Source: Liolophura sinensis (taxonomy: Eukaryota; Mollusca; Polyplacophora; Chitonida; Chitonidae). From it: a stretch of 64,000 nucleotides of DNA. The DNA is taken from contig NC_088302.1 in NCBI RefSeq assembly GCF_032854445.1, forward strand, positions 33,883,979 through 33,947,978. The letters are read 5' to 3'. The notes beneath the pieces were generated by a model. The model was not told the DNA's origin and searched no databases. It saw only the letters and a program-made list of their open reading frames with translations. A program made the position numbers and the translations under genes. Of this stretch, positions 578 to 64,000 are shown in pieces (positions within the stretch are counted from its first letter, which is position 1; every line of letters starts with the position of its first letter).

Positions 578-3500
578 CTAGACAATTCCTGCTGCTCCCA
601 TCAGCATTTCTCGCAGAAGGTCGGTTCTGTTCAAGCTCTGAATTTCTGCATTCTGAAAGCAGAGAGAAATCGCAACATAATCATATGTGATATGACACAG
701 GACATGCTTCTACCTGATTAGCAATAGTCACTACTGAACCATGCTATTTAAAGGCAAAGAAAAACATGACTACCCTGAGTCTTCCATTTTTTGGGACAGA
801 TATTAGTAGTGTTAAAAGCAGAATATTACATTTCTTTACAAGCCTTTTGGAAAAGTACAGATATGAGTATGTTGTTCATTAAATGGTCTAACCATGTGAG
901 AAAAATGAGCAGACCAGGTGTCCCAAAAATTAGAAGAAATAAGGTACTGATGTTGTAAAAAGGTCCAGGAAAATAGCTTGATTTATTTTTATTGAAACCA
1001 TGTAAAATTCATGCGAGACAATGGACCAGACATCACACCAATTTTGAGCAATTTAAAACACAGAAGAACACTAGATTTCTACCTTCAAAGAGCATACCTG
1101 CATACATTTATTTATTTATTTGATTGGTGTTTTACGCCGTACTCAAGAGTGTTTCACTTATACGACGGCGGCCAGCAATATGGTGGGAGGAAACCGGGCA
1201 GAGGAAACCCACGACCATCCACAGGTTGCTGACAGACCTTCCCACTCAACCTGCATAAAGAGCTACAAGTACATGTGTAAGTGCATTTGCCAAATGGACC
1301 ATGCAATTATTGCAAACAAGAAATGCATGTGACATCACTAACACCCATTTGATCCCAACATACCACTGCAAACTTTGACGTTTTAGTAGCATTTCACTCT
1401 GTTGGAAAAATGTTAAACTTTTCATTTTTCCTGTGCAGAGTATTGTCTCATTATTAGAGTATTATTAGAGCATTAGCTGCGAGTTGAACGCACACACCTA
1501 CACCTAACGCACACACACACACACACACCTAACACACACACACCTAACACACACGCGCACGCACACACACACACCTAACACACACACACACACACACACA
1601 CCTAATACACACAAACACACACCTAATACACACACACACGCACACACCTAACACACACACACCTACCTAACGCACACACACACACACACACGTGCGCACA
1701 CACACCTAATGCACGCACGCACACACACACACACACACCTAACACACATGCACACAAACACACACACACCTAACACACACGCACACACACACACACACCT
1801 AACACACACACACACACACACACACGCCTCTACCTAACACGCACACTGTGGAATGACCCACACAGTAATATGTCAGTCTTACCTTCCAGGCAATAATCAA
1901 ACTGTCCACGCCGCAGGAGACCACTCCATGAGTGCCATAATCCAAAAACATCTTCAACAGAGGAAAAATGACAGAAATCTATCATTTCCAGCCCAATGAA
2001 AGTGCACTATTAAAGATTTGCATAAACATTAAAGAAAGTATCTTGAGTTACACGTTGGTAAGATCTGCCTACACCTTTCCATGTTTTTTGGGTCTACACA
2101 TTTATGTTCAAACTGTTCAAGGTGAAGCGCTTTTTTCTTGCACTGCTCACTACTGTGTAATTACCCTAAAGAGAGAAATCACGTCAGGGCCCACAAAGTG
2201 CGCATGAAGGTAATAAGATGAAACTACATGTAGCTTCATGTACCTATCAGTCTTTATACACATAGGATTATGTTATGACAAAGCTTCCTGGTGCCTCTGT
2301 TTCTCGGTTAGTCCGCTAGCGCAGCGTAATCACCCAGGAGCCTCACACCAACGCGATCACTGTGAGTTCATGGTCGTGGGTTTCCCCCAGGCTTTGCCTG
2401 GTTTCCTCACAACATAATGATGGCTGCCGTTGTATAAGTGAAATATTCTTGAGTACGGCGTAAAACACAAATCAAATATATAAATTAATTAACTTGCTTC
2501 CCTGTTGTTCATATGCATGTAGATGCACTTTCAGATGAACAGTTGCAATTAGCTGTTTCCGTGTTGCATGACACAGAGCACAGAAACTCATAGTGTAGTC
2601 TGCCCTGAGCTGCTGTTTGTAGTCCAACTGCCTTAGGTCAAATTTTCACATACAACAAAACTGGTTTGAAACAGATTTCAAGTCTGTGGTATGGCATATC
2701 ATATTTCCTGAATGTATTCAGTTGCAATATGTGATTTATTGTGGTATTTGATGCAAAGTTTGAAGATTAAAAAAAAATTATTGCAAAATGCAGTGCTGCA
2801 TTTGTGATACACCCAGAAATTTGTAGAAACAAAACAAATTGCAAAAATGAAAGTATGTATCTGCTTTGCTTTGGTGTAACCTCACCCAAATTTGGAAAGA
2901 AATCTAATTTAACCAGTCAAGGTGTAATGTGACTGTGGTAGTATTCAGTTGTGTCAGACTGCAGTGTGATGGTGAGACATTTACCTGTACTGCCCCTGAA
3001 TGCCCCAGACACTCCCCCATCAGCTGTAACTCCATCAGGTAATCCTCTGCTCTACAGTGGCGAAGGTAGTCAATGCTGAAATGAGATGTTTCAAAGTTTG
3101 TTTATTATGTCAGTGGCGTGCTGGCGCAGCATAATGACCCAAAGGCCTCTCACCAATGTGGTCGCTATGAGTTCAAGTCCAGCTCATGCTGGCTTCCTCT
3201 GCGGCCGTATGTGGGAAGGTCTGCAAGCAACCTGCGGATGATCGTGGGCTTCCCCCGGGCTTTGTCCGTTTTCCCCCACCATAATGCTGGCCACCACCAC
3301 ATAAGTGAAATATTCTTGAGTACGGAGTAAAACACCAATCAAATAAATAAATAATATGTCAGTGTTTGAAACTGTATTGTGCAATCATTCACACCTGGAG
3401 TGTCTGGAGACATGGAGTAACCACGGCTATCATCACACACACATATCTGACAAACATCCAGTCGTCGTAAGTTAAACAATCTAGAGAATGGCTTAACACA

Positions 3501-6500
3501 CCAATCAAATGAACAAATAAATTAAAGCTGCCGTCAATCCAGTGACAGACCAATTAATGTCTGCGCTCTCATTTGTCAAAGGCTAATAAACAGTGACGTG
3601 AACAAAAATATAAGCTGAATGAAAATCAGTTTTCATAACAGCAAACACAAGCATCACATTTTTTTCTCACCAATCATAAGAATATCTGTGATATCTGAAT
3701 AATATATCTGACACATTTATGTTTCTATTTTTTTAACTACTCCCACTTATTCATCTCACGCATTCATAACTGTTTTAAGTTCATTGTAAAATAGCAATAA
3801 AAATGTTTCCATCTGTCCTTAAACTGTGTCTCTTTCCCTGAGATTTTTTTTAAATATATTTTTCAACTTTACAGCATTCTTGCAATTTATTAAGAAACCC
3901 AGTGATATGTAGGGCCTGATTTATTTTTCTACAATTAAATATCTTTGCCAGCATTGTTAGTATATTAGCATCACTTGGTCAGTATACAAATGCTACTTGT
4001 CTGTAAAAAGATTTCAGAATTCCAGGTGTCCCAACATACACGTACATGTACAGTCACTTGTGTGTACAAAACAAGTGTACATGTACTGTCACGTCTGTTT
4101 ACAAGACAAGTGTACATGTACTGTCAGGTGGGTGTACAAAACAAGTGTACATGTACTGTCATGTGTGTGTACAAAACGAGTGTACATGTACTGTCAGGTG
4201 GGTGTATAAAACAAGTGTACATGTACTGTCACATGTGTGTATAAAACAAGTGTACACGTACTGTCACGTCTGTTTACAAGACAAGTATACATGTACTGTC
4301 AGGTGGGTATACAAGGCAAGTGTACATGTACTGTCATGTGTGTGTACAAAACAAGTGTACATGTACTGTCAGGTGGGTGTATAAAACAAGTGTACATGTA
4401 CTGTCATGTGTGTTTACAAGACAAGTGTACATGTACTGTCAGGCGGGTGTACAAAACAAGTGTACATATACTGTCACGTGTGTTTACAAGACAAGTGTAC
4501 ATGTACTGTCAGGTGGGTATACAAGGCAAGTGTACATGTACTGTCATGTGTGTTTACAAGACAAGTGTACATGTACTGTCAGGTGGGTGTATAAAACAAG
4601 TGTACATGTACTGTCGTGTGTGTACAAAACAAGTGTACATGTACTGTCAGGTGAGTGTATAAAACAAGTGTACATGTACTGTCACGTGTGTGTATGAAAC
4701 AAGTGTACATGTACATGTATGTGGAGCTATTTTTCCTCCAGTTACAGATCTGACACTAGTTTTTCAGTGAAATATTCTTGAATATGGTATAGCAGCACTG
4801 AGTAAAAAAAAGAAATAATTGGCATAAACATAAATATATAATGTACTTAATCTATTGCTTCCACCAACGCTTGTCTGAGCTGACCTACATGTAGAGTCTG
4901 TGTCCCCACAGATTGAGACAGCCATCCTCAGAGCCCTAACCTGTAGCCAGTAAATCGTGAGAGGACATTGTCCCCGTGTTTATTGGTGTCAAGCGGAGCC
5001 AGCTGTAGTGTCTGGCTGTGTCCCCACAGACTGAGACAGCCATCCCCAGAGCCCTAACCTGTAGCCAGTAAATCGTGAGAGGACACGTCCTCATGTTTAC
5101 AGGTGTCAAGCTGAGCCAGCTGTAGCATCTGGCTGTGTCCCCACAGACTGAGACAGCCATCCCCAGAGCCCTTACCTGTAGCCAGTAAATCGTGAGAGGA
5201 CATTGTCCCCGTGTTTACTGGTGTCAAGCTGAGCCAGCTGTAGCATCTGGCTGTGTCCCCACAGACTGAGACAGCCATCCCCAGAGCCCTTACCTGTAGC
5301 CAGTAAATCGTGAGAGGACATTGTCCCTGTGTTTACTGGTGTCAAGCTGAGCCAGCTGTAGCGTCTGGCTGTGTCCCCACAGACTGAGACAACCATCCCC
5401 AGAGCCCTTACCTGTAGCCAGTAAATCGTGAGAGGACATTGTCCCCGTGTTTACTGGTGTCAAGCTGAGCCAGCTGTAGTGTCTGGCTGTGTCCCTACAG
5501 ACTGAGACAGCCATCCCCAGAGCCCTTACCTGTAGCCAGTAAATCGTGAGAGGACATTGTCCCCGTGTTTACTGGTGTCAAGCTGAGCCAGCTGTAGTGT
5601 CTGGCTGTGTCCCCACAGACTGAGACAGCCATCCTCAGAGCCCTTACCTGTAGCCAGTAAATCGTGAGAGGACATTGTCCCCGTGTTTACTGGTGTCAAG
5701 CTGAGCCAGCTGTAGTATCTGGCTGTGTCCCCACAGACTGAGACAGCCATCCTCAGAGCCCTTACCTGTAGCCAGTAAATCGTGAGAGGACATTGTCCCC
5801 GTGTTTACTGGTGTCAAGCTGAGCCAGCTGTAGTGTCTGGCTGTGTCCCCACAGACTGAGACAGCCATCCTCAGAGCCCTTACCTGTAGCCAGTAAATCG
5901 TGAGAGGACATTGTCCCCGTGTTTACTGGTGTCAAGCTGAGCCAGCTGTAGTGTCTGGCTGTGTCCCCACAGACTGAGACAGCCATCCTCAGAGCCCTTA
6001 CCTGTAGCCAGTAAATCGTGAGAGGACATTGTCCCTGTGTTTACTGGTGTCAAGCTGAGCCAGCTGTAGTGTCTGGCTGTGTCCCCACAGACTGAAACAG
6101 CCATTCTCAGAGCCCTTACCTGTAGCCAGTAAATCGTGAGAGGACATTGTCCTCGTGTTTACTGGTGTCAAGCTGAGCCAGCTGTAGTGTCTGGCTGTCC
6201 CCACAGACTGAAACAGCCATCCTCAGAGCCCTTACCTGTAGCTAGTAAATCGTGAGAGGACATTGTCCCCGTGTTTACTGGTGTCAAGCTGAGCCAGCTG
6301 TAGTGTCTGGCTGTGTCCCCACAGACTGAGAGAGCCATCCCCAGAGCCCTTACCTGTAGCCAGTAAATCATGAGAGGACATTGTCCCTGTGTTTACTGGT
6401 GTCAAGTTGAGCCAGCTGTAGTGTCTGGCTGTGTCCCCACAGTTGGAAAGAGCCATCCTCAGAGCCCTTACCTGTAGCCAGTAAATCGTGAGAGGACATT

Positions 6501-9500
6501 GTCCCTGTGTTTACTGGTGTCAAGCTGAGCCAGCTGTAGTGTCTGGCTGTGTCCCCACAGTCCGAGACAGCGATCCCCAGAGCCCTTACCTGTAGCCAGT
6601 AAATCGTGAGAGGACATTGTCCCCGTGTTTACTGGTGTCAAGCTGAGCCAGCTGTAGTGTCTGGCTGTGTCCCCACAGACTGAGACAGCCATCCCCAGAG
6701 CCTTTACCTGTAGCCAGTAAATCGTGAGAGGACATTGTCCCCGTGTTTACTGGTGTCAAGCTGAGCCAGCTGTATTGTCTGGTTGTGTCCCCACAGACTG
6801 AGACAGCCATCCTCAGAGCCCTTACCTGTAGCCAGTAAATCGTGAGAGGACATTGTCCCCGTGTTTATTGGTGTCAAGCTGAGCCAGCTGTATTGTCTGG
6901 TTGTGGCCCCACAGACTGAGACAGCCATCCTCAGAGCCCTTACCTGTAGCCAGTAAATCGTGAGAGGACATTGTCCCCGTGTTTACTGGTGTCAAGCTGA
7001 GCCAGCTGTAGTGTCTGGCTGTGTCCCCACAGTCGGAGAGAGCCATCCTCTGAACATGTCACCAAGAAGGTACTAAAAATAAAATATATGCAACAAAAAT
7101 TACTTAACTGACGTTTATATGTATATGTAGTTAACACATCTATATTTGATGCATAGGACCACAGGGATTATTTCCTTCATTTCACAACAGCGATATTGTT
7201 TACAATTCTCTCTGTATTAGGAGGAGACCATGCATGTGCATATCAATCTATAGTGAAGGTAGGGTGTCAGCAGAAATGGAAGTAAGTCTGCCAAAGGTGT
7301 ACAAATGGCAAGCTTAATTAATTAATTCCTTAATTTCTTAATCCCTTAATTCCTTAATCTTTACACATATTTAAGACAAACTTTTAGTGCAATTTATATG
7401 GTTTATTAATTTGATTGTGGAGACAAAAATACATAGCTAGCGTTGTTCGATTACAGGCCTTCATAAAAAAAGTATAGTTTCATCAATCTACACAGAGAAA
7501 AAGCCTAAGAATATACTTGAATATACATCGTGCAATCATGCTAAAAGGCTACAGTAAAAGTACTCTCGCTCTTACTTCCCACGGTCAAAAAATACAGTAA
7601 GTGTTTAAATCACTAGCCCTAAAAATTCGACAATTAAAATTGGTTTTTTTGAATCAAGACTTTAATACAGCATTAAGAAACCAGGTAAACTTACTTGTCC
7701 CAGACAAAGCCCACGAAGAGTATTTTAGAGTAATGTGCCTTTGCTTTGGTCATCAGCACTGATCCACACACTGTGTCATACACACAGAAGCCTGAACCTA
7801 TTCCTGCCACAATGTACCTCTGTAAAAGAAAGAGTATTTTAGAGTAATGTGCCTTTGCTTTGGTCATCAGCACTGATCCACACACTGTGTCATACACACA
7901 GAAGCCTGAACCTATTCCTGCCACAATGTACCTCTGTAAACAGAAAGAGTATTTTAGAGTAATGTGCCTTTGCTTTGGTCATCAGCACTGATCCACACAC
8001 TGTGTCATACACACAGAAGCCTGAACCTATTCCTGCCACAATGTACCTCTGTAAACAGAAAGAGTATTTTAGAGTAAAGTGTCTTTGCTTTGGTCATCAG
8101 CACTGATCCACACACTGTGCCATACACACAGAAGCCTGAACCTATTCCTGCCACAATGTACCTCTGTAAACAGAAAGAGTATTTTAGAGTAAAGTGTCTT
8201 TGCTTTGGTCATCAGCACTGATCCACACACTGTGCCATACACACAGAAGCCTGAACCTATTCCTGCCACAATGTACCTCTGTAAACAGAAAGAGTATTTT
8301 AACCTATTGCATTTGGTGCACTATGCTCACTGTTCATGTGCATCATGAACTTAAAATTGAAACAAGAGATTAAGGGAGATCAGTATGAATTTAGACGGTA
8401 CATTAGACAAAAACTCACCTCATCAATACATATCATGTGCTGGATGCTGTATGGATACAGGTGTTCCCTCCCTTGATAGTCTGGGATGGAGTTGAAGTAC
8501 CTAGAGGGCGCTAGTGTTTGTGTTGTCCACAAAATGATGGTGCCATCTATGGAGCCACTTGCAAAGGAAGCATCTTTAACAGAAAACACAAGAGGAAAGA
8601 TGAAGGACTCCAAATTAAAGGCAATATTACAGCAAGGTTCATGTAGACATTAAAACAGACTGTATTATTTGCTGATTTATTTGACTGGTGTTTTACGGTG
8701 TACTCAAGAATATTTGACTTATACGACAACAGCAGCATTATGGTGGGAGGAAACCCGGCATAGCCCGGGGGAAACCCAAAAACATCTGCAATTCGCTGGG
8801 AAACTTTCCAACATACACTCAGAGAGGAAGCTAGCATTAGCTGGACTTTAACTCACTGTTACCGCACTGGTGAGAGGCTCTTGGGTCACTGTGCCATGTT
8901 GGCACGCTAACCACCTCTGCCACAGGGCCCCCTATAATATATTAAGTGCTGTCTAAACACAGCTCTCCTGTACATTACATTTGAAGAGGAACCCGAACTT
9001 GACAAAGAGTTATTTTATGTCTACAGCTCAAGTTTGCAATAGCTGCGGTATCACACAAAAATTCTGTTACTTAAGGTTTCATGTCTTCTAGCACAAAGGC
9101 CACAGCAAGTCAATGACCAATTTTAAAAGATTGGATGTCAAGATTTTAATAACCAGCCAAACCACTGACTGAATGATTGAATGAAAAAGCGACTAACGGC
9201 CAAAATGTTGCTTCAATGAATGAGATAGACAGTACAGGGCAAGAGTTTGTACAGCTGTTCAGTGACCAGTTCCACAATGCAACTGTAAAGTTGATTGTAA
9301 CTACGTCATTGATTATACATGTTTATAAAGACATACATGAATAGATAGTTAAAACTCTATCATAGCTTTGTGGCACAGAGCACTGGCTCAGATGTAGTTA
9401 CAGACCAAAGGTTGACTAATCAACTCATGAAAACAGTGCTTGTATTATTTTTGTTTTTGTTTTGATCACAAGTGCAAATATCAAACTGAATAAAGCACTA

Positions 9501-12062
9501 ACCTGACACGTTAATCAGACAACGAATGGCTTCACGGTGAGGAGGCAGCTTCTTCACCAGAGTTACCTCGTATGAACAGTCCGTATTGGACGTCAGTGAG
9601 GTGATTATTTTCACAACAGAATAGACACCTGTGAGGTATGCAATGGAATCATACAATTAATGCACTGGCTGAAAGAGAAAAAATGCTATCACTAAATGTA
9701 TTTTTACCTCAAATTAGACAGAAGAATGAAACTGATAAAATACACAGTAAGTATCATTTGTGTGATGTTCAATTTTGCTCAGGTCTGTCAGAATAATGCA
9801 GCCTCATTTTGAACACCAGACTGAAGAAAACCAGAAAGAATGTAATGATAAATTAGTGCAGTTATTACAAATAATGAATTAAATGATTCTGATGAGTACA
9901 TGAGTACTTACACAACTGCTTGTCTGCCGCTGTCACTACTCGATTGTTCTTTGTGGCTATCATCAAATTAATATCCTCTACAAGAAACCACAAAAATCAT
10001 ATACAGTTTAGCCGGATCCTAACCATCAATCCTGTGCCCAGTGTGGCCAGAGGATACACTGTGGCTATCATCAAATTAATACCCTCTACAAGAAAGCACA
10101 AAAATCATATACAGTTTAGCCGGATCCTAACCATCAATCCTGTGCCCACTGTGGCCAGAGGATACACTGTGGCTATCATCAAATTAATATCCTCTACAAG
10201 AAACCACAAAAATCATATACAGTTTAGCCGGACCCTAACCATCAATCCTGTGCCCACTGTGTCCAGAGGATACACTGTGGCTATCATCAAATTAATATCC
10301 TCTACAAGAAAGCACAAAAATCATATACAGTTTAGCCGGACCCTAACCATCAATCCTGTGCCCACTGTGGCCAGAGGATACACTGTGGCTACCATCAAAT
10401 TAATATCCTCTACAAGAAACCACAAAAATCATATACAGTTTAGCCGGACCCTAACCATCAATCCTGTGCCCACTGTGGCCAGAGGATACACTGTGGCTAT
10501 CATCAAATTAATACCCTTTACAAGAAAGCACAAAAATCATATACAGTTTAGCCGGACCCTAACCATCAATCCTGTGCCCACTGTGGCCAGAGGATACACT
10601 GTGGCTATCATCAAATTAATATCCTCTACAAGAAACCACAAAAATCATATACAGTTTAGCCGGACCCTAACCATCAATCCTGTGCCCACTGTGGCCAGAG
10701 GATACACTGTGGTTATCATCAAATTAATACCCTCTACAAGAAACCACAAAAATCATATACAGTTTAGCCGGACCCTAACCATCAATCCTGTGCCCACTGT
10801 GGCCAGAGGATACACTGTGGCTATCATCAAATTAATATCCTCTACAAGAAAGCACAAAAATCATATACAGTTTAGCCGGACCCTAACCATCAATCCTGTG
10901 CCCAGTGTGGCCAGAGGATACACTGTGGCTATCATCAAATTAATACCCTCTACAAGAAACCACAAAAATCATATACAGTTTAGCCGGATCCTAACCATCA
11001 ATCCTGTGCCCACTGTGGCCAGAGGATACACTGTGGCTATCATCAAATTAATATCCTCTACAAGAAACCACAAAAATCATATACAGTTTAGCTGGATCCT
11101 AACCATCAATCCTGTGCCCACTGTGGCCAGAGGATACACTAACGATCGGCCTATGGTTAGCGTACAATACACTTCGTACGTCTACTGTGACATGATTCTC
11201 TGGCAATTGAACGCAGACCCTCGGCTGACCCCTGGCCGACCTTCAGCAGACCCTCGGCCTATGATGATCAAATGCTTTAATGCTAAATACGGACCGATTT
11301 GCTGTAAACCGTCATGCCTCTTGAACACCATGATAGCTTGCAGTACATTTATTTGCGCACAAATTTTGCACAAAATTCGAGTTTTATTAGCTTACTGTTT
11401 GGGACCCCTCCTGTTTAGGTCCGTCACCTGTATACACCATTCCCATGAGGACAGAGGATTCAAGTTTGTACTGGGCGTCTCGAGTATATGAAATTTTGTG
11501 TATAACATAAACTACTTCACTAATTATTAAAGAACAAGCCTACTTAGAGGCATTTATGGCAGAGTTATCTGCCTATGAACATATGTATATGCAACATATT
11601 GCTTTCTCTGAAGTCCGCACTGTACATGGCAGCTGTATACAACCGTGGCTGTGTTTCAGAATTTGGAAACAGACTAAAGTTCTTTGGTTTATTAGTAAAT
11701 TTATCACCCGTTACCTGTAGGACCAAAATTACGCAGGAATATTTGACTTTACTGTGCGATGTGTGTCAGCCTGTGTGCTTATATAAGCTTAAAAAATGTC
11801 TATTGAAAATGTATATGTATTGAGTCATATCGGTACATCACTCAAGGCCTACAATTTATAAAATTGGAATTCCTGATAGGTAAGGTCAGCGTGTTACTGT
11901 TTTCCCTTTAATCTAAAGTCCCTAAATTGTGTACCCAATTTCACAACTGTCAACACTATTGTTTATTAATTTTTATAAGCACAAAAATGTGTTTATTATA
12001 AGATGAGAACAATCATATTTATCCTTTATATACGCTTGCAGACATGCGATGTACGTCCCATG

Positions 12063-12116
<54 letters not shown>

Positions 12117-13412
12117 TATATGTGCATCCTAAAGTTGGCATTAAATCAATCTATAAAATGCTATATTTTGAAAATATCCCTCTACCTATTCATGTATAAA
12201 TTATGAAAATACACCAAAGAAAGTATAGATCAAAACCGGAGAGTTTGGTACTGGTAAAACGAAATCTATTGGCCCAATTCCAATCCAATTTTTGCCGCCC
12301 AAATAATTACCTACCACAAAGTATCAGTCTCGTCCGTGCATGTGTTATGTTTAATATCAATCATAAAGTTCCAAAAATATACAGAGATAGTCACGCGAAC
12401 AATACAAGGCCTACAGAGTATGTCCCATGTCATTACGTCAAACTCCAGTAAGTGAATAAATGTCGTAAAACGATACGCTGACCATGGCGGCATCATACAC
12501 AGACTGTCGTTAGACCGTGGGCTGACCCTTAGCCGACCCTACACGGATGGGAGGCGGAGGACAACGGCGTGTTTGATCAAAGTTCGGCCGTGGTCTGCGT
12601 GTAGTGGACGTATGATACACGTGCCATCCAACCACAATGGACGTAGGATGGATGGTTAGGATCAAAAGTATTATCTACAAAATGTAATAATACAATCACA
12701 ATCCCACTCCCTCTGTTTGCGACCCTTTCACCCCTTCCTAGTGTTAATACTTATAGTCAACAAGCACCACCTTGGTGTATTTTCAATTTTCTATGCTCCT
12801 TGTAAATCATACATTTCTACTTCCGTTCTAAATTTTCGCTTACGTGGAAATACCCAGGCTCCATTCACACATTAATACATGTAACTACTGAAAACCAGAA
12901 ATATAAATATATATATTCTCCTTGAATGGGTTCTTCACATCTCTACAGGTATTAAAGTCTTTCCCATTGCAGTAAAATACATGTTCTTACCATCATTAAG
13001 CGACAATGTCGAACTTAGCAACTGCCCTTTTCTCGTCCAAACACACAACTTTTTCCCTCCCGAACAGAAAAGTGATCCATTTTCCAGTGACAACAGACTC
13101 TGCAAAGGAAAAGAAACATTAGCAGGCTGTGAGCAGTAAACATCGTTTCCTTAATCATTAGTGTTTATCTAACATGTACCTTAGCATACAGTCCATTGTT
13201 TTATCGATGTATTCAGACAGCTATCCCTAATCTACATTTGTAGATTGCTACTGCCAAGGTTACGAGTTCAAATCCAGCATCCACCTTAAGGCGCCGGCTT
13301 TGTCAGGCACTGATAAAGTGTGGCAGTTGTCTTCATGGCCAGCCAAATTTATTTACCTACCATGATCATATACGTTGTGCACATGGCATAAAACATCAAT
13401 GAAATAATTAAT

Positions 13413-13485
<73 letters not shown>

Positions 13486-17417: not shown

Positions 17418-17465
17418 GCTGCCCTCCCAATCCCAGTCCCAGTCAATCTTCTTCCCAAAATGCAT
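17418..17465 (-). CDS. WDR41: Candidate first coding exon of WDR41
   Basis: On the minus strand an ATG opens 16 codons (MHFGKKIDWDWDWEGS) ending exactly at a possible GT donor (GTAACG) in phase 0, the phase needed by the next exon at 16736. This would put 27 residues before NPYTEL, against about 30 in human WDR41. The donor is weak (no G at +5) and the residues do not resemble the human start, so this is only a candidate. Confidence 0.3.
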
Positions 17466-52800: not shown

Positions 52801-55800
52801 GGATAGGTCTTAATAAAGATACAGAGATGGTCCTTATCAGTGAAAGTGATTATCATTGTTATTAAGACTTAGGACTGATTACTGAGAAAAAGCTTGATGG
52901 ATAAATTGGTGACATATAGAGCACATAGAACTCTGATGAAAGGATCTTCATGATAAATTTCATAGTTACTTCTGGTCCTGCCATTAGAACTATGAATAAA
53001 GGTTGATCATGATAAATTTCGTAGTTACTTCTGATCATGCCAGTAGAACTCTGATTAAAGGTTCATTATGATAAATTTCATAGTTACTTCTAGTCCTGCC
53101 AGTAGAACTCTGATTAAAGGCTCATCATGATAAATTTCATAGTTACTTCTAGTCATGCCAGTAGAACTCTGATTAAAGGTTCATTATGATAAATTTCATA
53201 GTTACTTCTGGTCATGCCAGTAGAACTCTGATTAACGGCTCATCATGATAAATTTCATAATTACTTCTGGTCATGCCAGTAGAACTATGATTAAAGGTTG
53301 ATCATGATAAATTTCATAGTTACTTCTGGTCATGCCAGTAGATCTCTGATTAAAGGTTGATCATGATAAATTTCATAGTTACTTCTAATCGTGCTAGTAG
53401 AACTGTGATTAAAGGTTGATCATGATAAATTTCATAGTTACTTCTAATCGTGCCAGTAGAACTCTGATTAAAGGTTGATCATGATAAATTTCATAGTTAC
53501 TTCTAGTGATGCCAGTAGAACTCTGATTAAAGGTTGATCATGATAAATTTCATAGTTACTTATCATAGTCCTGATATTATAACCAGTAGCTGTAGCTACC
53601 AGTAGAACTCTTATCAGAAGAAAGGTGCTTTTATTTTCATTGGTTATACCTCTGGTAGGATTAAATTGGTGATCTTTATATTTTATATACTATTAGCAGA
53701 ATTTTGATGAAAGATTCATAACTCTACCTCCAGCAGATATCACAAAAATAACTCTGATTATGTAACGTTGATGACTCGCATGTAGATGTACTCATGAAAT
53801 GAACACTAGTAAATTCATTGAGTTGTTGCCATTAGCGTACTGTTGATGACTTACACAACCATTTGTTGATGAACAAATTTTTCCTTTTGTTTTAGCCTGT
53901 GTTGACTGGAACTTCCAAAAGCAAAATGACTGTCAGTGGCCAATTTCGGGTTAGTACTCACATACTAGCTGACTGTTTATGGGGCAAGTTTATACTTGAT
54001 ACAGTACCGGTTTATTTCCATTATTTAATTTAATGAATCAAACTGACCCATGAAATGAGTAGAAGATGAATGTCTTCTATTAGATTAATAGGGGATTCTT
54101 TTCAGTTAAAGAAGGTAAAATCAGTCCTCTTGTATCATGTGACCTGTGAAAAATGGTAGACAACCTTTGTTGACATTAATTTATCGATCACGTGTCCCAC
54201 CGTGTTCTAGAGACACTAATAACACCTCTTTCCTTTAGAAACTTCTCAAGTTCACAAACATTCAGCTCCTCAGTTTTCTCCATTGTTTTGTCTATTTAAA
54301 ATAACTTTTTGCGAAATTTTTCTCAGAGGCCTGTGTTACATTTTTGACAGGTCATGATACAGTAGGACCTTTTTTACCTTTTAATGCTAGAAGGAACTCC
54401 CCTATTATACTATTCTTGACGAAGCATTATTTATGGTTTTGCCACTTCTCTGAATGATCTAAAATTTCACCCAAACTAAGGCAGTTTCAGAGGAAATAAA
54501 TATCATAAAATGTAACTTGTACTGCTGAAACTTTACTTTTTCTACTAGGAAAATCGGCCTATTTTCCAAAAAAACTGTATGATATATGGATTACATATCA
54601 CTTCAATGTTGTATGTTCTATCTGTAAAGGTATTGTGACTGTTATAGCTGCATAACGTTCGCTGCATGCCTCGCTATGTGTGTAAAGTATACAAGAGTTT
54701 GCTGCGCTTTTTGTTGTCAGTTCTGTGAATACCACTCGCTCTCGAGCTGCATGCCTAAAGCCAAACAATGATGTATACATCGGGAATTAGTTTACGATAA
54801 GAGGCGTACTGTTTTGGCTAGGTGAATGAGTGAGTGCTTGGGGTTTAACATCGTACTTAACAAGTTTTCAGTCATATGACGACAAAGGAATCATTAGGGT
54901 GCATGTAATGTTGCAGGACGGATTTCCACCGCTCTTTTATCTAGTGCTGCTTCATTGAGACGCCTTACCGAAGGCAAGTAAGCCACCCTGCCCGAGCCAT
55001 TATACAGATATGGGTCAAGCAGTTGTTACAATATTCCCTTCATGCTGAATGCCAAGCGAGGAAGCTGCAACTTCCTCTTTTAAAGTCTTAGGTGTGACTC
55101 GACTCAGGATTGACCCTGGATCTACTGCTCCTGAACTGGATGCTCTACCAACTGTGCCATCGGGGCCAGTTTTTAGCTAGGTTGCTCAGGGGCAATGGAT
55201 TGGTATTTACATGTATCAAAAACATTGTAATTTGTTTTAATGGCTAGAAGGTAAGATTGGCCACACCGGCCAATTTCAAAATTTCTGTCATAGCGAACGG
55301 GATAGATATAAGCCACATTGTGAAAGTGTCTTGGTAGAGAGCTGGCCTGCCATCTCTCCTAGGCGAGGGCTTACAGCTGCATTGAGCGTTCCCGGTGCGA
55401 ACCAACAGCCAGTCATCAATAAAGGAACTATTGGTGGAAATATCGGCGTCTCTTCATCCTTCTCACCTTCGCGGGCGACAGGGATAAAGCCCGGCTAATC
55501 ACGCCGGGTTGAACCTGTACATCGGTTCTGTATATGTAACAACCCGTTCTCATTTGGCGCCATAACACAAACAAGACCAGCACACAAGCCCACTGTCGTC
55601 ACCTGAGAGAGAAAGTTTACAAACATCAACATGTTTCTGAGATCAAATGAGCACTAGACTTCATTGTACGGAACCCTTGTCAGAAGTATCGATCATGTAT
55701 ATTTGAATACAGCTTAAAATACACATAGGTCTGCCGAGTTTCCACCCATCATAATGCTGGCTGCTGTCATATAAGTGAAATATCCTTGAGTACGGCGTAA

Positions 55801-58800
55801 AACACCAATCAAATAAATAAGTAAGTAAATAATATACAAAATATATTTCCTTACAAATGAGTGAAATAAATTATGAATTGGGTCAAACATTTACATGCAT
55901 TGATTTGGACTGCTAATTTTGAGTCACATGCATGCATCTTTTGTTAGAATTCGCTGAAGATCCTGATGGAGAAGATGAATGCAGCCTCACCCATCTTTGT
56001 GCGCTGTCTGAAGCCTAACCAGAAGAAAGCCCCAAACATGTTTGATAGTCAGTACATGCTGGCTCAGGTAAGGGCACATTGTACTGTACTGAACAAAAAA
56101 AGACTTCAAATTTAGAGACATGAATTACGTTGAAAAATGGCAGTAGAAGGTAGTTAATATGGGCAAATACCATAATGTCCAGGTCTAACCTGATGCATCC
56201 AACCATTGCAATTGTCTGTATTGTTGGGATCTCTAATGGACAGGCCGTACGTGGGAAGGTCTGCCAAGCAAGCTGCGGATGGTCGTAGGTTTCCACCCAC
56301 CTTAATGCTGGTCACCGTAGTATAAGTGAAATATTCTTGAGTATGGCGTAAAACACCAATCAAATAAATTGAATAAATAAATGTAATGGACGGGATGATG
56401 CGTGATAAGTGCACATATGTGATCTTAACATTAAGTCTGTGTTGTTGGGATCTCTAATGGGCAGGCTGATCTGTCCTATGTTCACATGTGTGATCTTAAC
56501 ATTAAGTCTGTGTTGTTGGGATCTCTAATGGGTAGGCTGATCTGTCCTATGTGCACATGTGTGATCTTAACATTAAGTCTGTGTTGTTGGGATCTCTAAT
56601 GGGTAGGCTGATCTGTCCTATGTGCAGATGTGTGATCTTAACATTAAGTCTGTGTTGTTGGGATCTCTAATAGGTAGGCTGATCTGTCCTATGTTCACAT
56701 GTGTGATCTTAACATTAAGTCTGTGTTGTTGGGATCTCTAATGGGTAGGCTGATCTGTTCTATGTTCACATGTGTGATCTTAACATTAAGTCTGTGTTGT
56801 TGGGATCTCTAATGGGTAAGCTAATCTGTCCTATGTGCACATGTGTGATCTTAACATTAAGTCTGTGTTGTTGGGATCTCTAATGGGCAGGCTGATCTGT
56901 CCTATGTTCACATGTGTGATCTTAACATTAAGTCTGTGTTGTTGGGATCTCTAATGGGTAGGCTGATCTGTCCTATGTTCACATGTGTGATCTTAACATT
57001 AAGTCTGTGTTGTTGAGATCTTTAATGGGCAGGCTGATCTGTAATATGTGCACATGTGTGATCTTAACATTAAGTCTGTGTTGTTGGGATCTCTAATGGG
57101 CAGGCTGGTCTGTCCTATGTTCACATCTGTGATCTTAACATTAAGTCTGTGTTGTTGGGATCTCTAATGGGTAGGCTGATCTGTTCTATGTTCACTTGTG
57201 TGATCTTAACATTAAGTCTGTGTTGTGGGGATCTCTAATGGGTAGGCTGATCTGTCCTATGTTCACATGTGTGATCTTAACATTAAGTCTGTGTTGTTGG
57301 GATCTCTAATGGGCAGGCTGATCTGTCCTATGTTCACTTGTGTGATCTTAACATTAAGTCTGTGTTGTTAGGATCTCTAATGGGCAGGCTGATCTGTCCT
57401 GTGTTCACATGTGTGATCTTAACATTAAGTCTGTGTTGTTGGGATCTCTAATGGGTAGGCTGATCTGTCCTATGTTCACATGTGTGATCTTAACATTAAG
57501 TCTGTGTTGTTGGGATCTCTAATGGGCAGGCTGATCTCTCCTATGTTCACAAGTGTGATCTTAACATTAAGTCTGTGTTTTTGGGATCTCTAATGGGCAG
57601 GCTAATCTGTCCTATGTTCACTTGTGTGATCTTAACATTAAGTCTGTGTTGTTGGGATCTCTAATGGGTAGGTGGATCTGTCCTATGTTCACATGTGTGA
57701 TCTTAACATTAAGTCTGTGTTGTTGGGATCTCTAATGGGTAGGCTAATCTGTCCTATGTTCACATATGTGATCTTAACATTAAGTCTGTGTTGTTGGGAT
57801 CTCTAATGGGCAGGCTGATCTGTCCTATGTTCACACGTGTGATCTTAACATTAAGTCTGTGTTGTTGGGATCTCTAATGGGCAGGCTGATCTGTCCTATG
57901 TTCACATGTGTGATCTTAACATTAAGTCTGTGTTGTTGGGATCTCTAATGGGTCGGTGGATCTGTCCTATGTTCACATGTGTGATCTTAACATTAAGTCT
58001 GTGTTGTTGGGATCTCTAATGGGTAGGTGGATCTGTCCTATGTTCACATGTGTGACCTTAACATTAAGTCTGTGTTGTTGGGATCTCTAATGGGTAGGCT
58101 GATCTGTCCTATGTTCACATGTGTGATCTTAACATTAAGTCTGTGTTGCTGGGATCTCTAATAGGCAGGCTGATCTGTAATATGTGCACGTGTGATCTTA
58201 ACATTAAGTCTGTGTTGTGGGGATCTCTAATGGGTAGGCTGATCTGTCCTATATTCACATGTGTGATCTTAACATTAAGTCTGTGTTGTTGGGATCTCTA
58301 ATGGGCAGGCTAATCTGTCCTATGTTCACATGTGTGATCTTAACATTAAGTCTGTGTTGTTGGGATCTCTGATGGGCAGGCTGATCTGTAAAGTGTGATC
58401 TTAACATTAAGTCTGTGTTGTTGGGATCTCTAATGGGCAGGCTAATCTGTAATATGTGCTCATGTGTGATCTTTTTCAGCTCTTGTACACAGGGATGCTT
58501 GAAACTGTGAAAATCAGAAGAGACGGATTTGCTGTGAGAGTTTCTTTTGAGGAGTTTGTAACAAAGTAAGTCCAAATCGTTCAGCTGATTTACTGCCTGT
58601 GGGGTTCCATGGTGACAAAAAGCGGGTGATACCACTCATGGGGCCCTTTGCACAGTTTAGTGTTTGTTGCTTGTCTTTTGCCAAAATAGTGCGCATATCT
58701 GTATGTTACATGTGGGAAAGTTTGTTGGTAACTAGGTTGGTGGTTTAAGCTTAGCACCTCCACCCCATGAAACTGACTTGCATAGTGTAAGTGAATAATT

Positions 58801-61800: not shown

Positions 61801-63653
61801 AATAAAGTTTCTTCCCATGTCCAATATAAACTGACATTCTGTAGCTTTATATTGTCAGAAACATCAAATTCATTGTGTCACAATTCATATGTGTTGACGC
61901 TGCACTCTTTGTGATGTCCATTTAAGCTGACATTTCAATGCATTATTTAGTTCAGATCACAGGTGTGCTTATTATTTTACACCCATAAACTATGGCATAT
62001 GCTGGGTGACACGTTTATGCCATTCAGAATTTGTATCAGGCCTATTTCTCTGTTACATGTGAATCACTACAGTTGTTCGTGGCCACAAGGACAGAAAATG
62101 GGTGAAGAAAATCAAAGAGGATGTCAGGGAGCGTGAAAGAAAAGTAGCAGAGATGTTGCAGCAGGTGGAGGAATTGGGACAATCACTTGTTCGTCAACAG
62201 GAGGTGCTATGTCAGGCAGACAAGGAGGCAGCTAAAGGTATTTGTTAAAATAGTTAGACTCGTGATTGTGGGTATTTGGCATTTTACAGTGGTGGATCTT
62301 TGCGCATTGCCATAGCTTCTGTACATTGCTACTAAGATCATTTTCTTTTGTTCTCAGTTGTTTCAATGAAATCAATAATCAGCAAATCAAATCAAGAATT
62401 TTATTTGGAATCTGAAGTCTAATTGACTAACATAGCCTGTGGATGGTTGTAGGTTTCTGAGCCCAGTTTTCTTCCATTGTAATGCTGGACATTGTCAAAT
62501 AAATTATATTGTCTTGAGTATGGCATGAAACACCAATTGAATGAGTAGATACATAAATAAATACATAAATAAAATGAATTGACCCGTGGCTGCTGTGAAT
62601 CAAAATAATCTCGCCTACCGCAACTGCCAGTCAAAATTCTACTTCAGCCAATTAGAAAACTTTAAAAAATATTACTTGACACCACTTTCTCTTCTTGTCA
62701 ACTTAATAGCTCCTAAAGCAATAAAGTTTGAAACAGAATACGTTTTGTGAGCCTTGTTATCATTGTCCAAGTGTTGTTTAAACAAGCAAAGTGGTTTGGA
62801 GGTAGACGTACATCTAGTCTTTCATGGTCTTTCTTTCCTCTTTTTAGGTGGCGTGCCCTTTAAGTTGAGGTCATCCTCATTGTATTTACTTTATCACTTA
62901 CTTAAAGCATGCATGAAAGGATACTGTAAAACTAAGAGTATAGAATTAAGGACAATAAGACTTGGCGAAAAAAATAGAAAAAAATTTTCATTTTTGATTT
63001 TTTAAGCCCTATATTTTGTGCATATTTTCTGTTAATGGTTGAAATATTTGAAAATGACATTTTCGATGAACATACTGGGAACACAGAACCAGCTAAGTGC
63101 CCTCAATTCAGGCTCTCCCCTCAACAAAGTTAAGCAGGGTACATGCACTTCTTTTCCGGAGCGACTGCAGGGGACTGAGGGAAACTGTACAAAGTTGAGA
63201 AGTTATTTTGTACTTTTCTGGTAAGGCAAAATATAACATCATACACTCTGTATTAAGAAATAAAAACCCATGCTGGCTTCCCCTCCAGCCAAAAGTGGGA
63301 AGGTCTATCAGCAACCTACAGATGGTCATGTGTTTCCCCTGAGCATTGCCCAGTTTCCTCAAACCATAATGCTGGTTGTAGTTGTATAAGTGAAATATTC
63401 TTGAGCATGGCGTAAAACATCAATCAAATAAATAAATACATGTAAATAAATAAATAAAAACCAATTATTTCACGTATACCTTTAACCAATGCGTTTTACA
63501 GTGGAGAAGTTGTCAAAAGCAGCTCCCCCATCACCCCTGCCGTCACCACAGCAGCCAGAGCCACCTGCCCCTCATCATAATATCCTCTCTCCGGAGAAAA
63601 TAGATGGTTCATTCAGATCAAGCAGTGGATCATCAATCAGTGAACATACACAG
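28853..63653 (+). CDS. Unconventional myosin, class III/XVI-like, kinase-less (23 exons, C-terminus incomplete)
   Basis: Exons 28853-28960, 34264-34329, 35839-35972, 36279-36381, 37042-37144, 39345-39501, 40048-40147, 40931-41059, 41861-41969, 43112-43231, 43889-43989, 44976-45062, 45439-45504, 46696-46809, 47521-47632, 52601-52668, 53896-53949, 55948-56067, 58480-58565, 59877-59972, 60723-60814, 62073-62237 and 63502-63653 join in phase to 814 residues. The motor has P-loop GESGAGKT (104-111), switch [10 protein letters not shown] (153-161), switch II DIFGFE (380-385) and the actin-binding RCLKPN. An acidic residue sits at the TEDS position (TRGD), and the SH1 helix [17 protein letters not shown] lacks the usual Cys. 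One IQ motif (about 704-718) is followed by a charged helix and a Pro-rich stretch. The start is the first ATG (MMADGK), with an in-frame TAA 24 nt upstream of it, so no kinase or ankyrin region precedes it. Loop and SH1 wording best fits class III or XVI. These are actin motors of cell protrusions and signalling cells. Confidence 0.9.
29575..29940. repeat. Dispersed repeat with CTGTCTGTCCGTCTG motif
   Basis: AGGCATCTGCCTGTCTGTCC followed by AAAGTTATGGATGGATTTGG and TGAAATTTTGTGCACAGCTTGG, part of which recurs degenerately further in (near 29800). This wording recurs in many invertebrate genomes from memory. Only one full copy is in the window. Confidence 0.45.
31085..32420 (+). pseudogene. 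Dead pogo-like (DDE_1) transposase in myosin intron 1
   Basis: The frame around 31799-32160 reads a catalytic-core signature: [46 protein letters not shown], then TLILFDGH followed at once by a stop. Continuing homology ([14 protein letters not shown], then [10 protein letters not shown]) follows in shifted frames to about 32390. Upstream, 31560-31700 ([18 protein letters not shown]) is the linker before the core, also frame-broken. The IDE, DGH and LPP spacing is that of the Tc1/mariner-pogo (Tigger/jerky) type. Multiple frameshifts and stops make it inactive. A CGTATTTCTCCTAAAGTTTGG word near 31091 resembles the termini of the short element at 43338-43560. Confidence 0.85.
32765..33105. mobile_element. 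Mixed short-element fragments in myosin intron 1
   Basis: The CACTAAAGATGCAAGCTTCATAAAACTGTGCA segment (near 32977) recurs at 59190-59222, and GGTTGAAAAGGTTAAAGAATTAGGG (near 33070) matches the right end of family M2. The boundaries are uncertain. Confidence 0.5.
33117..33170 (-). mobile_element. Main SINE family (S1), short 3' fragment
   Basis: TTTATTGGTGTTTTACGCTGTACTCAAGAATATT only. It sits between duplicated ATAGCTAGTCTA words (33106 and 33170), which look like target-site duplications. Confidence 0.75.
33198..33548 (+). mobile_element. Second SINE family (S2), full length
   Basis: tRNA-like head (GGCCCCCAATAGCACAGTGGGTAGAG, then GGGTCAAGCCTGGGTCG), body ending ACTGAAAAATTGTTAAGTTAAACCCC and a CACTCACTCACTCA tail. 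It is the mirror copy of 54828-55172. Confidence 0.85.
33947..34166 (+). mobile_element. Main SINE family (S1) copy
   Basis: AGGAGCCTCTCACCAATGCG, GTTCAAGTCAAGCTCATGCT, TATTCTTGAGTACAGCGTAA and an AAATAAATAAATG tail. It lies about 100 bp before myosin exon 2. Confidence 0.88.
34580..34935 (+). repeat. Dispersed repeat in myosin intron 2
   Basis: CATTGCGTTGGGTGTGGTTGTTACTGACTG..GCACCGTGGGAGAG and GAATGTAATAAACAAGCTCGC recur with changes near 59280-59390. It is an old interspersed element of unknown class. Confidence 0.6.
35437..35715 (+). mobile_element. Short inverted-repeat element family M2, with a partial copy beside it
   Basis: The copy from about 35510 has AATTCCTCAACAGTTTCGCA at the left, CAATTTATGCACATTTTTAGG, and a degenerate inverted right end near 35700. 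The preceding 70 bp match only the right half of the family. It lies in myosin intron 2. Confidence 0.6.
36560..36955. repeat. Retroposon-like repeat in myosin intron 4
   Basis: ACCTTTGGCAAATTACTAGT and the surrounding GGTGCCCAAAATAAACCAGT recur near 37340-37425. The right end reads as a possible inverted tRNA-like head (CACCCTAACCCTAGGGCAGTGCCACAGCC). Class uncertain. Confidence 0.5.
37446..37622 (+). mobile_element. Main SINE family (S1), 3' part
   Basis: GGGAAGGTCTGCAGCAACCT, GGTTTCCTCCCACCATAATG and an AAATAAATAAATAAATAAAT tail. Confidence 0.88.
38325..38815. mobile_element. Inverted-repeat element family M1, copy 2 (myosin intron 5)
   Basis: Left end AACTATGCATAAATATACTTCC and right end AAATGAAAGTATTTTCATGCATAGTTTTCAG are inverted. 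The interior matches the copy at 1-490 (for example AATCATGACACTGAATGTTGG). Confidence 0.88.
40240..40640 (-). mobile_element. Short elements: M3 reverse copy followed by an M4-like left end
   Basis: TTTAGAAAGGTGCTTTCAAA to ATGATATCATAGTGGAAAAA matches M3 in reverse. From about 40520, GTATTTCACCTAAAGTTTAG resembles the termini of the element at 43338-43560. Confidence 0.55.
43338..43562. mobile_element. MITE family M4 with inverted ends (myosin intron 10)
   Basis: The left end ACTGTATTTCACCTGAAGT is mirrored at the right by ACTTTAGGTGAAATGCAGT (19-bp terminal inverted repeats, few mismatches). The 225-bp interior has no coding potential. Confidence 0.78.
44060..44300 (+). mobile_element. Main SINE family (S1), older copy
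   Basis: Head GGGCCTCTGTGGCCCAATGG (near 44061), then GTGAGTTCAAGTCCAGCTAA, then a diverged core. The 3' tail is replaced at about 44300 by an M2 element, which appears to have inserted into it. Confidence 0.8.
44300..44515 (+). mobile_element. Short inverted-repeat element family M2 copy
   Basis: Left TTCCTCAACCTTTTTGCTTAC and right GTGAAAAGGTTAAAGAACTC form degenerate terminal inverted repeats. A SINE-like remnant (CTCTTGAGTAAGGTGTAACATTCC) resumes at the right edge, which supports insertion into the older SINE. Confidence 0.72.
44735..44940 (+). mobile_element. Main SINE family (S1) copy
   Basis: CTCACCAATGCAGTCGCTGTG, GCTGGCTTCCTCTCCGACCG and TATTCTTGAGTACGTGTAAA, with an A-rich tail about 35 bp before myosin exon 12. 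Confidence 0.9.
46318..46560 (+). mobile_element. Dispersed short element family M3 copy
   Basis: AAGTACATGTTTAGAGGAAAATAAGTGTCA and TTTTGGTGCCGAAACATACC align with 28295-28525. It lies in myosin intron 13. Confidence 0.7.
46975..47217 (+). pseudogene. Dead duplicate of myosin exon 13 and its upstream intron
   Basis: Aligns closely with 45245-45480, including about 190 bp of intron and the exon start GACCTGTTCCTGGATAAACC. At the copy the acceptor CAG has become CGG (about 47173-47175), and similarity stops after TCTCTGTTGG, before the DEESFFPS codons and donor. The exon copy therefore cannot be spliced normally. It lies in intron 14, two exons downstream of the original. Confidence 0.9.
47780..48055 (-). 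mobile_element. Main SINE family (S1), diverged
   Basis: TTCACGCCTTATTCAAGAATATTTCACTTATAC, GGGAGAAAACCGGGCATAAC and GACTTGAACTTACAACGACTGC, read as the reverse of the SINE. Confidence 0.85.
48136..48232. repeat. 16-bp minisatellite (6 units)
   Basis: Units of AAGGCAACACATGTTC, nearly perfect, in myosin intron 15. Confidence 0.93.
49080..49270 (-). mobile_element. Possible tRNA-derived SINE of another family
   Basis: Minus-strand reading gives GGTTGCTGGTTCAAAGCCAAGG near 49195-49217, which resembles a tRNA B box, preceded by CTCTTTAGTGGTATAAGCC, which resembles an A box. Confidence 0.5.
49520..51870 (+). repeat. 79-bp minisatellite (about 29 units) in myosin intron 15
   Basis: Unit: GTCAGACCTCGTGCTTATTTG, ATGAACAGATGCTTGCTTGG, TATGGGAGATGC, TTTTTCTGTTTGGGAGATGG, TTATT. 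Some units carry an extra 20-bp TTTTTCTGTTTGGGAGATGC. Many overlapping 73- and 106-codon open frames result from the 79-bp period and are not genes. Confidence 0.96.
52276..52412 (+). mobile_element. Main SINE family (S1), 3' part
   Basis: ATCTGCCACCTGCGGATGGTC, TGGCTGTCATTG and an AAATAAATAAATAAATAAAT tail, about 190 bp before myosin exon 16. Confidence 0.8.
52925..53575. repeat. 59-bp minisatellite (about 11 units) in myosin intron 16
   Basis: Unit: GTAGAACTCTGATTAAAGG, TTGATCATGATAAATTTCAT, AGTTACTTCTGGTCATGCCA. It fades out on both sides. Confidence 0.93.
54455..54570 (+). mobile_element. Dispersed short element family M3 fragment
   Basis: GGCAGTTTCAGAGGAAATAAATATCA and CTGCTGAAACTTTACTTTTTCTACTAGG match M3. 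Confidence 0.6.
54828..55172 (-). mobile_element. Second SINE family (S2), full length
   Basis: Begins TGAGTGAGTGCTTGGGGTTTAAC (complement of the tail) and ends CTACCAACTGTGCCATCGGGGCC (complement of the tRNA-like head). It aligns over its length with 33198-33548. Confidence 0.88.
55225..55560. repeat. GC-richer unidentified segment in myosin intron 17
   Basis: Contrasts with the AT-rich intron. It includes CTCCTAGGCGAGGGCTTACAGC and GCCCGGCTAATCACGCCGGG, the latter a short hairpin-forming inverted repeat (CCCGGC/GCCGGG). It may be part of a retroposon. No second copy was noticed. Confidence 0.4.
55725..55830 (+). mobile_element. Main SINE family (S1), 3' part
   Basis: CCCATCATAATGCTGGCTGC, TATCCTTGAGTACGGCGTAAA and an AATAAATAAGTAAGTAAATAA tail. 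Confidence 0.85.
56240..56385 (+). mobile_element. Main SINE family (S1), 3' part
   Basis: GGCCGTACGTGGGAAGGTCTG, GTGAAATATTCTTGAGTATGG and an AAATAAATTGAATAAATAAAT tail. It lies between myosin exon 18 and the 71-bp array. Confidence 0.88.
56401..58462 (+). repeat. 71-bp minisatellite (about 29 units) abutting the myosin exon 19 acceptor
   Basis: Unit: GTGATCTTAACATTAAGTCTG, TGTTGTTGGGATCTCTAATG, GGTAGGCTGATCTGTCCTAT, GTTCACATGT. The last partial unit reads GTGATC and then CTTTTTCAG|CTCTTG, so the array runs into the polypyrimidine tract of exon 19 (58480). In ordinary units the same position reads AACATTAAG|TCTG. Confidence 0.95.
58690..58858 (+). mobile_element. Diverged SINE of the main type
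   Basis: TGTGGGAAAGTTTGTTGGTAAC, AGTGAATAATTGTTGAGTATG and an AAATAAATCAATAAATAAATAA tail. Confidence 0.65.
59563..59735 (-). mobile_element. Main SINE family (S1) copy
   Basis: TTTATTTATTTATTTGATCAGTG at the tail side, TTTTATGCCATACTCATTAAAG, and GAACTGGACTTGAACTCAC at the head side. Confidence 0.83.
60188..60490. repeat. 25-bp minisatellite with a degenerate 17-bp repeat beside it
   Basis: Seven units of CACATGTACGTACTGCTCCTTAAGG at about 60308-60488, one with a 1-bp insertion. Upstream (60188-60270) there are about four degenerate copies of GGTACACATACCGGTGAAA. All lie in myosin intron 20. Confidence 0.92.
61180..61665. mobile_element. Inverted-repeat element family M1, copy 3 (myosin intron 21)
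   Basis: Left AATAGACCACTTAAAACTATGC with ATACTTTCATTTATT; right AATAATAGTATTATTACACTTAG with CTTTCAGTTGTCTTTATGATG. Inverted similarity extends outward for about 80 bp (GAAAAAACCTC near 61180 against the reverse complement of CTTTCTTTTACTC near 61645). Confidence 0.86.
62430..62575 (+). mobile_element. Main SINE family (S1), diverged 3' part
   Basis: AGCCTGTGGATGGTTGTAGG, TTGTCTTGAGTATGGCATGAA and an AAATAAATACATAAATAAA tail. Confidence 0.8.
63265..63460 (+). mobile_element. Main SINE family (S1) copy
   Basis: GCTGGCTTCCCCTCCAGCC, TGAAATATTCTTGAGCATGG and an AAATAAATAAATACATGTAAATAAATAAATAAA tail. It lies about 40 bp before myosin exon 23. Confidence 0.88.
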
Positions 63654-63718
63654 GTATTGAAGGTTAAGCACTTTCAGGAGGAGGTATTAATTATAAACAT
63701 AGGTTCTCTTCTTTGTAG

Positions 63719-64000
63719 AATCAATCAGTGGATATGGTGGGTGGTCATGAGGATTAGGGGTTTCAAGGGGCAGGTATTATTAAAAGTTGTTCTCTCCTTT
63801 TTTAGAATGGAATTGCAGTCATGGATCCAGAGAATTTTGTATTTGGGCTAAAGGATTAGGGGTTTCAAGGGGCAGATATTATTAAAAGTTGTTCTCTCCT
63901 TTTTTAGAATGGAATAGCAGTCATGGATCCAGAGAATGTTGTATTTGGGCTAAAGGATTAGGGGTTTCAAGGGGCAGATATTATTAAAAGTTGTTCTCTC
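63719..64000 (+). repeat. 102-bp tandem array copying a myosin acceptor and exon start (runs off the window)
   Basis: Units at 63719, 63806 and 63908 each begin after an acceptor (TTTGTAG or CTTTTTTAG). In the phase required by exon 23 they read NQSVDMVGGHED-stop, NGIAVMDPENFVFGLKD-stop and NGIAVMDPENVVFGLKD-stop. Spacing of the common GGATTAGGGGTTTCAAGGGG segment is 102 bp. The first unit may give a real C-terminus at 63757. By analogy with the WDR41 arrays, a complete exon may instead follow beyond 64000. Confidence 0.75.

Follow-up and report, generated by a model that had tools for sequence, protein, structure and literature searches.

Mirage-like tandem arrays across exon-intron junctions in WDR41, a myosin gene and other genes of the chiton Liolophura sinensis

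Minisatellite-like tandem duplications of exon-intron boundaries have been described in amphioxus under the name of mirages, in Adh3 and in the globin genes BflGb6 and BflGb9, where reverse transcription PCR results suggest regular splicing and where array length varies between haplotypes (3 and 6 copies in two BflGb6 haplotypes), with somatic instability (PMC3087553). Other reported structures share some of these traits. Human genes of segmental duplications carry internal tandem repeats at exon-intron boundaries, with an average unit of ~30 bp in 4 copies (PMC2812944); the Rogers model of intron gain by tandem duplication has been invoked for the potato RdRp gene (PMC4974935) and for ATP2A1, as cited there; and the polyubiquitin gene UBC contains a tandem array of dual-specific AGGT splice sites, whose tolerance has been attributed to the possibility of splicing it out (PMC10809524). 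Our analysis of a 64,000-bp stretch of the genome of the chiton Liolophura sinensis (C8:33,883,979-33,947,978, hereafter the window) shows four tandem arrays whose unit spans an exon-intron junction, three of them in WDR41 and one in a neighboring myosin gene on the opposite strand. Arrays of the same kind recur in other genes, at 15 of 184 sampled exon matches (8.2%, 95% interval 4.6-13.1%). Most probably these arrays are mirages, generated by a neutral minisatellite process that would explain nearly everything we observed. A first-pass annotation of the window had pointed to four junction-spanning arrays in the two genes and to a recurring feature of the genome. Both genes do bear such arrays, although the four that it had in mind are not identifiable, and the recurrence is borne out by the sample; its statement that no named system of this kind is known is incorrect in view of the amphioxus mirages.

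The minus-strand gene was identified as WDR41 with a query peptide joined by hand from minus-strand exons, the best PDB match being 6lt0, 'WD repeat-containing protein 41' (E 3.7e-57). Arrays were called with Tandem Repeats Finder (TRF) and then checked by direct reading of the sequence, and exon boundaries were set from homology and splice consensus. Three WDR41 exons, all supported by homology, bear junction-crossing arrays, one on the donor side and two on the acceptor side. The donor-side array (4898-7050, minus strand) contains 18.3 copies of a 118-bp unit made of 107 nt of the exon at 7072-6944 and the first 11 nt of the intron, with the donor CAG/GTAAGG, whose GT is kept in 18 of 18 picked donor copies. 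The complete exon (TFLVTCSEDGSLRLWG...SRFTGYR; 6944-7072, minus strand) stands at the 5' end of the array. The first acceptor-side array (7716-8301, minus strand) has 5.1 copies of a 115-bp unit, composed of 11 nt of intron end and 104 nt of exon, and the complete exon (RYIVAGIGSGFCVYD...; 7695-7819, minus strand) lies at its 3' end. In the second (9952-11140, minus strand), 11 copies of a 108-bp unit combine 82 nt of intron end with 26 nt of exon; one of the 10 distal acceptors has been lost, AG having changed to AA, and the complete copy of the exon (EDINLMIATKNNRVVTAADKQLC) occupies 9912-9977 on the minus strand. The penultimate acceptor of the 115-bp array (window 7695-8301), if used, would add 38 in-frame residues to WDR41.

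The plus-strand neighbor is a myosin gene, recognized by motor homology and a Myosin_head match. Its junction-crossing array is old and decayed and lies on the acceptor side (about 39780-40085, plus strand) of an exon at 40048-40147 on the same strand, inside the Myosin_head match. TRF detects only a part of it (39911-40081, 74-78% matches), and the five copies picked by reading are spaced by 53, 100, 55, and 53 bp. The window thus contains four junction-crossing arrays, one donor-side and three acceptor-side, with periods of 53-118 bp, and its longest array measures about 2.3 kb. Membership in a dispersed repeat family was rejected for the 118-bp array and for a 71-bp array next to another exon of the plus-strand gene, as genome searches with both units gave matches at their own loci only (a search in which very common words may be skipped).

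The frequency of such arrays was estimated in two gene families, with a TRF period of at least 30 bp as threshold. For the WD40 family, 150 matches were scored out of 653 first-look candidates and taken together with 800 bp of flanking sequence at either end (110 regions, 216,516 bp); by merged open frames, they correspond to 142 distinct exons. As a replicate, we took the first 34 kinase matches by rank that had no internal stop and covered no more than 130 profile positions, adding 700 bp of flank at either end (55,685 bp in all), a rule fixed after viewing the match list and before retrieving the sequences. TRF found 42 arrays in the WD40 set and 11 in the kinase set, 53 in total, of which 38 lie away from the sampled junctions. 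An array crosses the exon's own junction in 11 of the 150 WD40 matches, at the donor in eight (L011, L028, L038, L088, L090, L099, L106, and L113) and at the acceptor in three (L024, L071, and L074), and in 4 of the 34 kinase matches (L117, L120, L126, and L131). Periods of the crossing arrays range from 35 to 162 bp. A side bias, which the first-pass annotation had proposed to look for, did not appear in the sample (10 donor versus 5 acceptor arrays, P 0.30).

The junction calls were made by eye and not blind; an automatic scoring of splice boundaries, which passed 86 acceptors and 81 donors of 150, was not used for them. Reading covered 26 of the 53 arrays, with middle units elided, so that 15 is a lower count for the sampled regions, and some of the 27 unread arrays may sit on unsampled exons. 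Several arrays were read and left uncounted: those that are intronic or outside the junction (L010, L044, L057, L085, L128, L136, L139, and the second array of L038), one that abuts a donor (L101), two below the 30-bp limit (L005, 22 bp and inside an exon, and L086, 26 bp), and two at the junction of a neighboring exon. The latter are a 120-bp acceptor array with 4 copies in a G-beta-like WD40 gene (L081, 1-479) and a 76-bp donor array with 2 copies in a kinase gene (L146, 1005-1169). The arrays of L028, L071, L074, L081, L090, and L113 reach the edge of the fetched stretch and may be longer than the part seen there.

Do the surplus splice sites function? In 21 arrays, 141 of 160 distal copies retain an intact GT or AG, a count in which the picks of L024 and L071 are noisy and one pick of L011 is off target. 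Preservation was tested on 16 clear arrays with 118 distal copies. In a first alignment, the distal splice dinucleotides matched the proximal copy at 96.6% of bases, the agreement being 92.8% for exonic bases and 90.5% for intronic ones; in a refined alignment, 11 of 236 splice bases were mismatched versus 23 (standard deviation 10) for random dinucleotides, a difference short of significance (P 0.10). In nine of these 118 distal copies, an insertion or deletion breaks the frame of the exonic part. When the 128 intact distal sites of 18 arrays (L024, L071, and the old myosin array being left out) were examined for coding use, 57 were in frame and only 3 were both in frame and open, so that splicing at a distal site would nearly always be destructive to coding. 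Selection for frame-preserving units was rejected: 6 of 19 junction-crossing unit lengths (4 arrays of the window and 15 of the sample, counted by hand) are multiples of three, about chance level, or 5 with a unit of 145 bp rather than 66 bp for L071; the coding test of the distal sites carries more weight than this count.

The explanation that we favor starts from a founding tandem duplication that would have happened to take in one exon-intron junction, the array then expanding and contracting as ordinary minisatellites do. A duplication of this kind leaves one complete exon with its own site and places all surplus copies on the intron side. Because of this geometry, the complete exon is always left, as the first copy in donor arrays and the last in acceptor arrays. 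The earlier observation that each WDR41 array keeps the complete exon where splicing needs it is therefore true, but this retention is automatic and brings no separate evidence of design or selection. The arrays would be tolerated because a complete exon always keeps a splice site of its own, and they would be frequent because the genome is rich in minisatellites near exons, which make up about 7% of the sequence sampled. An intact protein would require the spliceosome to use the exon-proximal site and to discard the other copies within the intron. Surplus copies would drift while the turnover of the array homogenizes them, selection on their splice sites leaving no significant trace, and the mild excess of arrays at exon edges described below may reflect a GC (guanine plus cytosine) preference of the arrays, a modest mutational bias, or both. 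The proposal of the first-pass annotation that a mutational process is tolerated through the redundancy of the extra sites looks correct.

Several points weigh against this neutral explanation. Chance alone is not a wholly satisfactory account of the origin, as the excess at exon edges is still ~1.9-fold after correction for GC content. The distal splice dinucleotides lean towards conservation in both alignments, not significantly so in the refined one. We infer the origin of the arrays, their neutrality and the choice of splice site: use of the exon-proximal site is an assumption made from genomic sequence, for which the conserved protein encoded across the WDR41 junctions only suggests regular splicing, and turnover would follow from unit spacing and identity within a single haplotype.

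Among the alternatives, a targeted mutational process is the one that survives best, as a possibility that we nonetheless hold to be doubtful. In this scenario, microduplication would be favored at exon edges, through DNA damage linked to transcription or splicing or through short repeats at the junction, and the arrays would then expand. The null expectation was computed with each array collapsed to one unit, uniform placement, and two boundaries assumed per exon (142 distinct WD40 exons). Under this model, the 15 crossings observed compare with 5.18 expected (2.9-fold, P 3e-4), and the 14 crossings with at least 10 nt on each side with 4.32 (P 2e-4). Each family taken alone gives an excess: 11 crossings versus 4.45 expected in the WD40 set (P 0.002; 4.0 expected with a flank-based null) and 4 versus 0.73 in the kinase set (P 0.007). 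In the window, which was chosen for this feature, 4 of 10 arrays of period at least 30 cross a junction versus 0.67 expected when ~27 exons (54 boundaries) are assumed. The WDR41 array at 7716-8301 also fits the scenario, for its intron end and exon have in common the 12 bases TAAAATACTCTT, one unit apart, as if a short repeat had primed the first duplication.

However, base composition accounts for part of this excess. Arrays away from the sampled junctions are GC-richer than their flanks (0.417 versus 0.374), as are the junctions themselves, and a GC preference alone raises the expectation to 7.8 versus 15 observed (P 0.014; with L024 and L071, the two least clear arrays, set aside, P is 0.055). 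The units of crossing arrays exceed those of other arrays in length (P 0.005), as a targeted process might produce, but chance alone makes a long unit more likely to span a junction, and the difference is expected in any case. Many TRF copy numbers are fractional, which implies that arrays often begin and end at different points of the unit, so that a single shared 12-mer proves little. The excess at junctions is thus modest and partly compositional, and any targeting is at most weak. The priming at exon edges suggested by the first-pass annotation finds weak support, the excess falling from 2.9-fold over uniform placement to 1.9-fold after the GC correction.

A broader and more speculative view, which we rate as somewhat less probable still, would give the chiton lineage a lasting mutational bias towards the multiplication of splice junctions and thousands of arrays across the genome, together with a spliceosome that reliably picks the exon-proximal one of up to ~20 near-identical sites, and a continuing source of new introns. 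The last element of this view has been proposed by itself for the amphioxus globins, whose mirages were modeled as raw material for new introns (PMC3087553). Here, arrays of up to 18-20 picked copies whose units bear AG or GT could play such a part, and in potato RdRp an intron did arise from a tandem duplication across a boundary (PMC4974935). As an explanation of the chiton arrays, we nevertheless consider such an intron nursery improbable.

Control of splicing by site competition, the other possibility envisaged in the first-pass annotation, fares worse and seems to us very unlikely. Surplus sites would draw the spliceosome and tune exon inclusion, intron retention or nonsense-mediated decay. 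The 141 intact distal sites out of 160, with their leaning to better preservation than other bases, and the 38 in-frame residues that the penultimate acceptor of the 115-bp WDR41 array would add, speak for it. Nevertheless, for 125 of the 128 intact distal sites, use would shift the frame or run into a stop, which counts against protein isoforms but less so against a control through decay; the better preservation falls short of significance; and the arrays differ widely, with 2 to 20 picked copies each and TRF matches of about 74 to 99%.

The possibility that the long arrays were invented or inflated in assembly is, in our view, highly improbable: coverage of 14x together with tandem DNA is a risk in an assembly of 13 pseudomolecules made from PacBio high-fidelity (HiFi) reads (PMC11068029), but error is unlikely in the window because the mean read length of 8.3 kb exceeds every array in it, and units within an array differ, the oldest being about 75% alike. 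The assembly comprises 609.46 Mb in 632 contigs. It was first published under the name Liolophura japonica (PMC11068029), later corrected to L. sinensis (PMC12441733). Contig C99 (108,685 bp) contains seven cox1 matches ~15.5 kb apart and is probably the mitochondrial genome assembled as a concatemer; one more cox1 match lies on C632. Translations of the mitochondrial contig, read by eye, give the order nad3-nad2-cox1-cox2-atp6, with TGA inside cox1, as is compatible with a mollusc.

The plus strand of the window carries other duplications. The array of 29 copies of a 71-bp unit (56412-58473) adjoins an acceptor without including it, as it ends 6 nt before the acceptor at 58479; the exon that starts at 58480 was assigned to myosin by eye. 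This array had been placed at 56401-58462 and described as ending on the acceptor, which it does abut, with coordinates 11 bp off and the last 6 nt lacking. An array of 3.0 copies of a 102-bp unit (63750-64000, continuing to 64056 in the genome) has three acceptor-like sites and is followed by sequence that no homology marks as an exon. A dead partial exon duplicate, already recognized at 46975-47217, is confirmed at 46977-47218 as a 92% copy of 45244-45481, which comprises the intron end, the acceptor, and the start of a myosin exon; in the copy, the acceptor CAG has become CGG and the match stops before the 3' part of the exon. Downstream of the window, on the same strand as the myosin gene, lie exons of an SH2 domain (L003, about 2091-4245; Pfam SH2, E 1.6e-7). 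From their order and strand, this domain would form the tail of the myosin gene, which would be unusual for a myosin. The same region contains, at 3320-3680, what we take to be a look-alike of a tRNA-derived short interspersed nuclear element, with box A and box B-like motifs. Between the two genes of the window, a 395-aa open frame (20205-21389) is rich in lysine and acidic residues and found no match in a Pfam search at E 0.001. Open frames between myosin exons (31540-32386) resemble a DDE transposase by eye, and an interspersed element with similar translations occurs on both strands (1075-1329, 3176-3384, 8654-8848, 44746-44955, 55664-55870, 63111-63419, and others).

Mirages were known from a few amphioxus genes, and structures of the same kind occur here at roughly one exon in twelve in a sample of two families. 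If this frequency, inferred from 184 matches, holds genome-wide, thousands of genes would have near-identical competing splice sites with known positions and copy numbers. They would constitute a natural experiment on how the spliceosome chooses among look-alike sites, and it would become testable whether new introns originate from such duplications. They also call for caution in gene prediction, as the surplus exon fragments resemble real exons. In our search of the open-access literature, 'mirages' occurred only in PMC3087553 among the matches listed, and, judging from titles and the openings of abstracts, none of the open-access papers on molluscs, minisatellites, introns, and tandem repeats points to such arrays; in the genome paper, the words 'tandem' and 'intron' each occur 0 times (PMC11068029). 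Within the literature searched, the chiton arrays are thus a new taxon and a new scale for a named kind of structure.

Compared with the systems described so far, the chiton arrays come closest to the amphioxus mirages (PMC3087553). In both, the unit spans one exon-intron boundary, as in the 4 arrays of the window and at 15 of the 184 sampled exon matches, and is of minisatellite size (10-160 bp in amphioxus, 35-162 bp in our sample, 53-118 bp for the window arrays). Duplication may affect the boundary at either end of the exon, 5' or 3' (our sample has 10 donor and 5 acceptor arrays, the window one and three), AG or GT persists in many units though not in all (intact here in 141 of 160 distal copies), and the complete exon remains. 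The differences are the chiton host, the copy number of up to ~20, and a frequency measured in a sample, whereas splicing and polymorphism have been studied in amphioxus only. The human internal tandem repeats are also minisatellites at exon-intron boundaries, able to change splicing (PMC2812944), but they belong to recent primate paralogs with transcript-supported new introns, whereas the chiton genes are conserved and known from DNA alone. In potato RdRp, the duplication also crosses an intron-exon boundary (PMC4974935); there, the duplicate became a spliced new intron, whereas none was seen in the chiton, where no search aimed at new introns was made. UBC, finally, is likewise a tandem array in which each unit has a splice site (PMC10809524), but its repeats are coding, in frame, and variably spliced, whereas only 3 of the 128 intact surplus sites in the chiton lead into units that are in frame and open.

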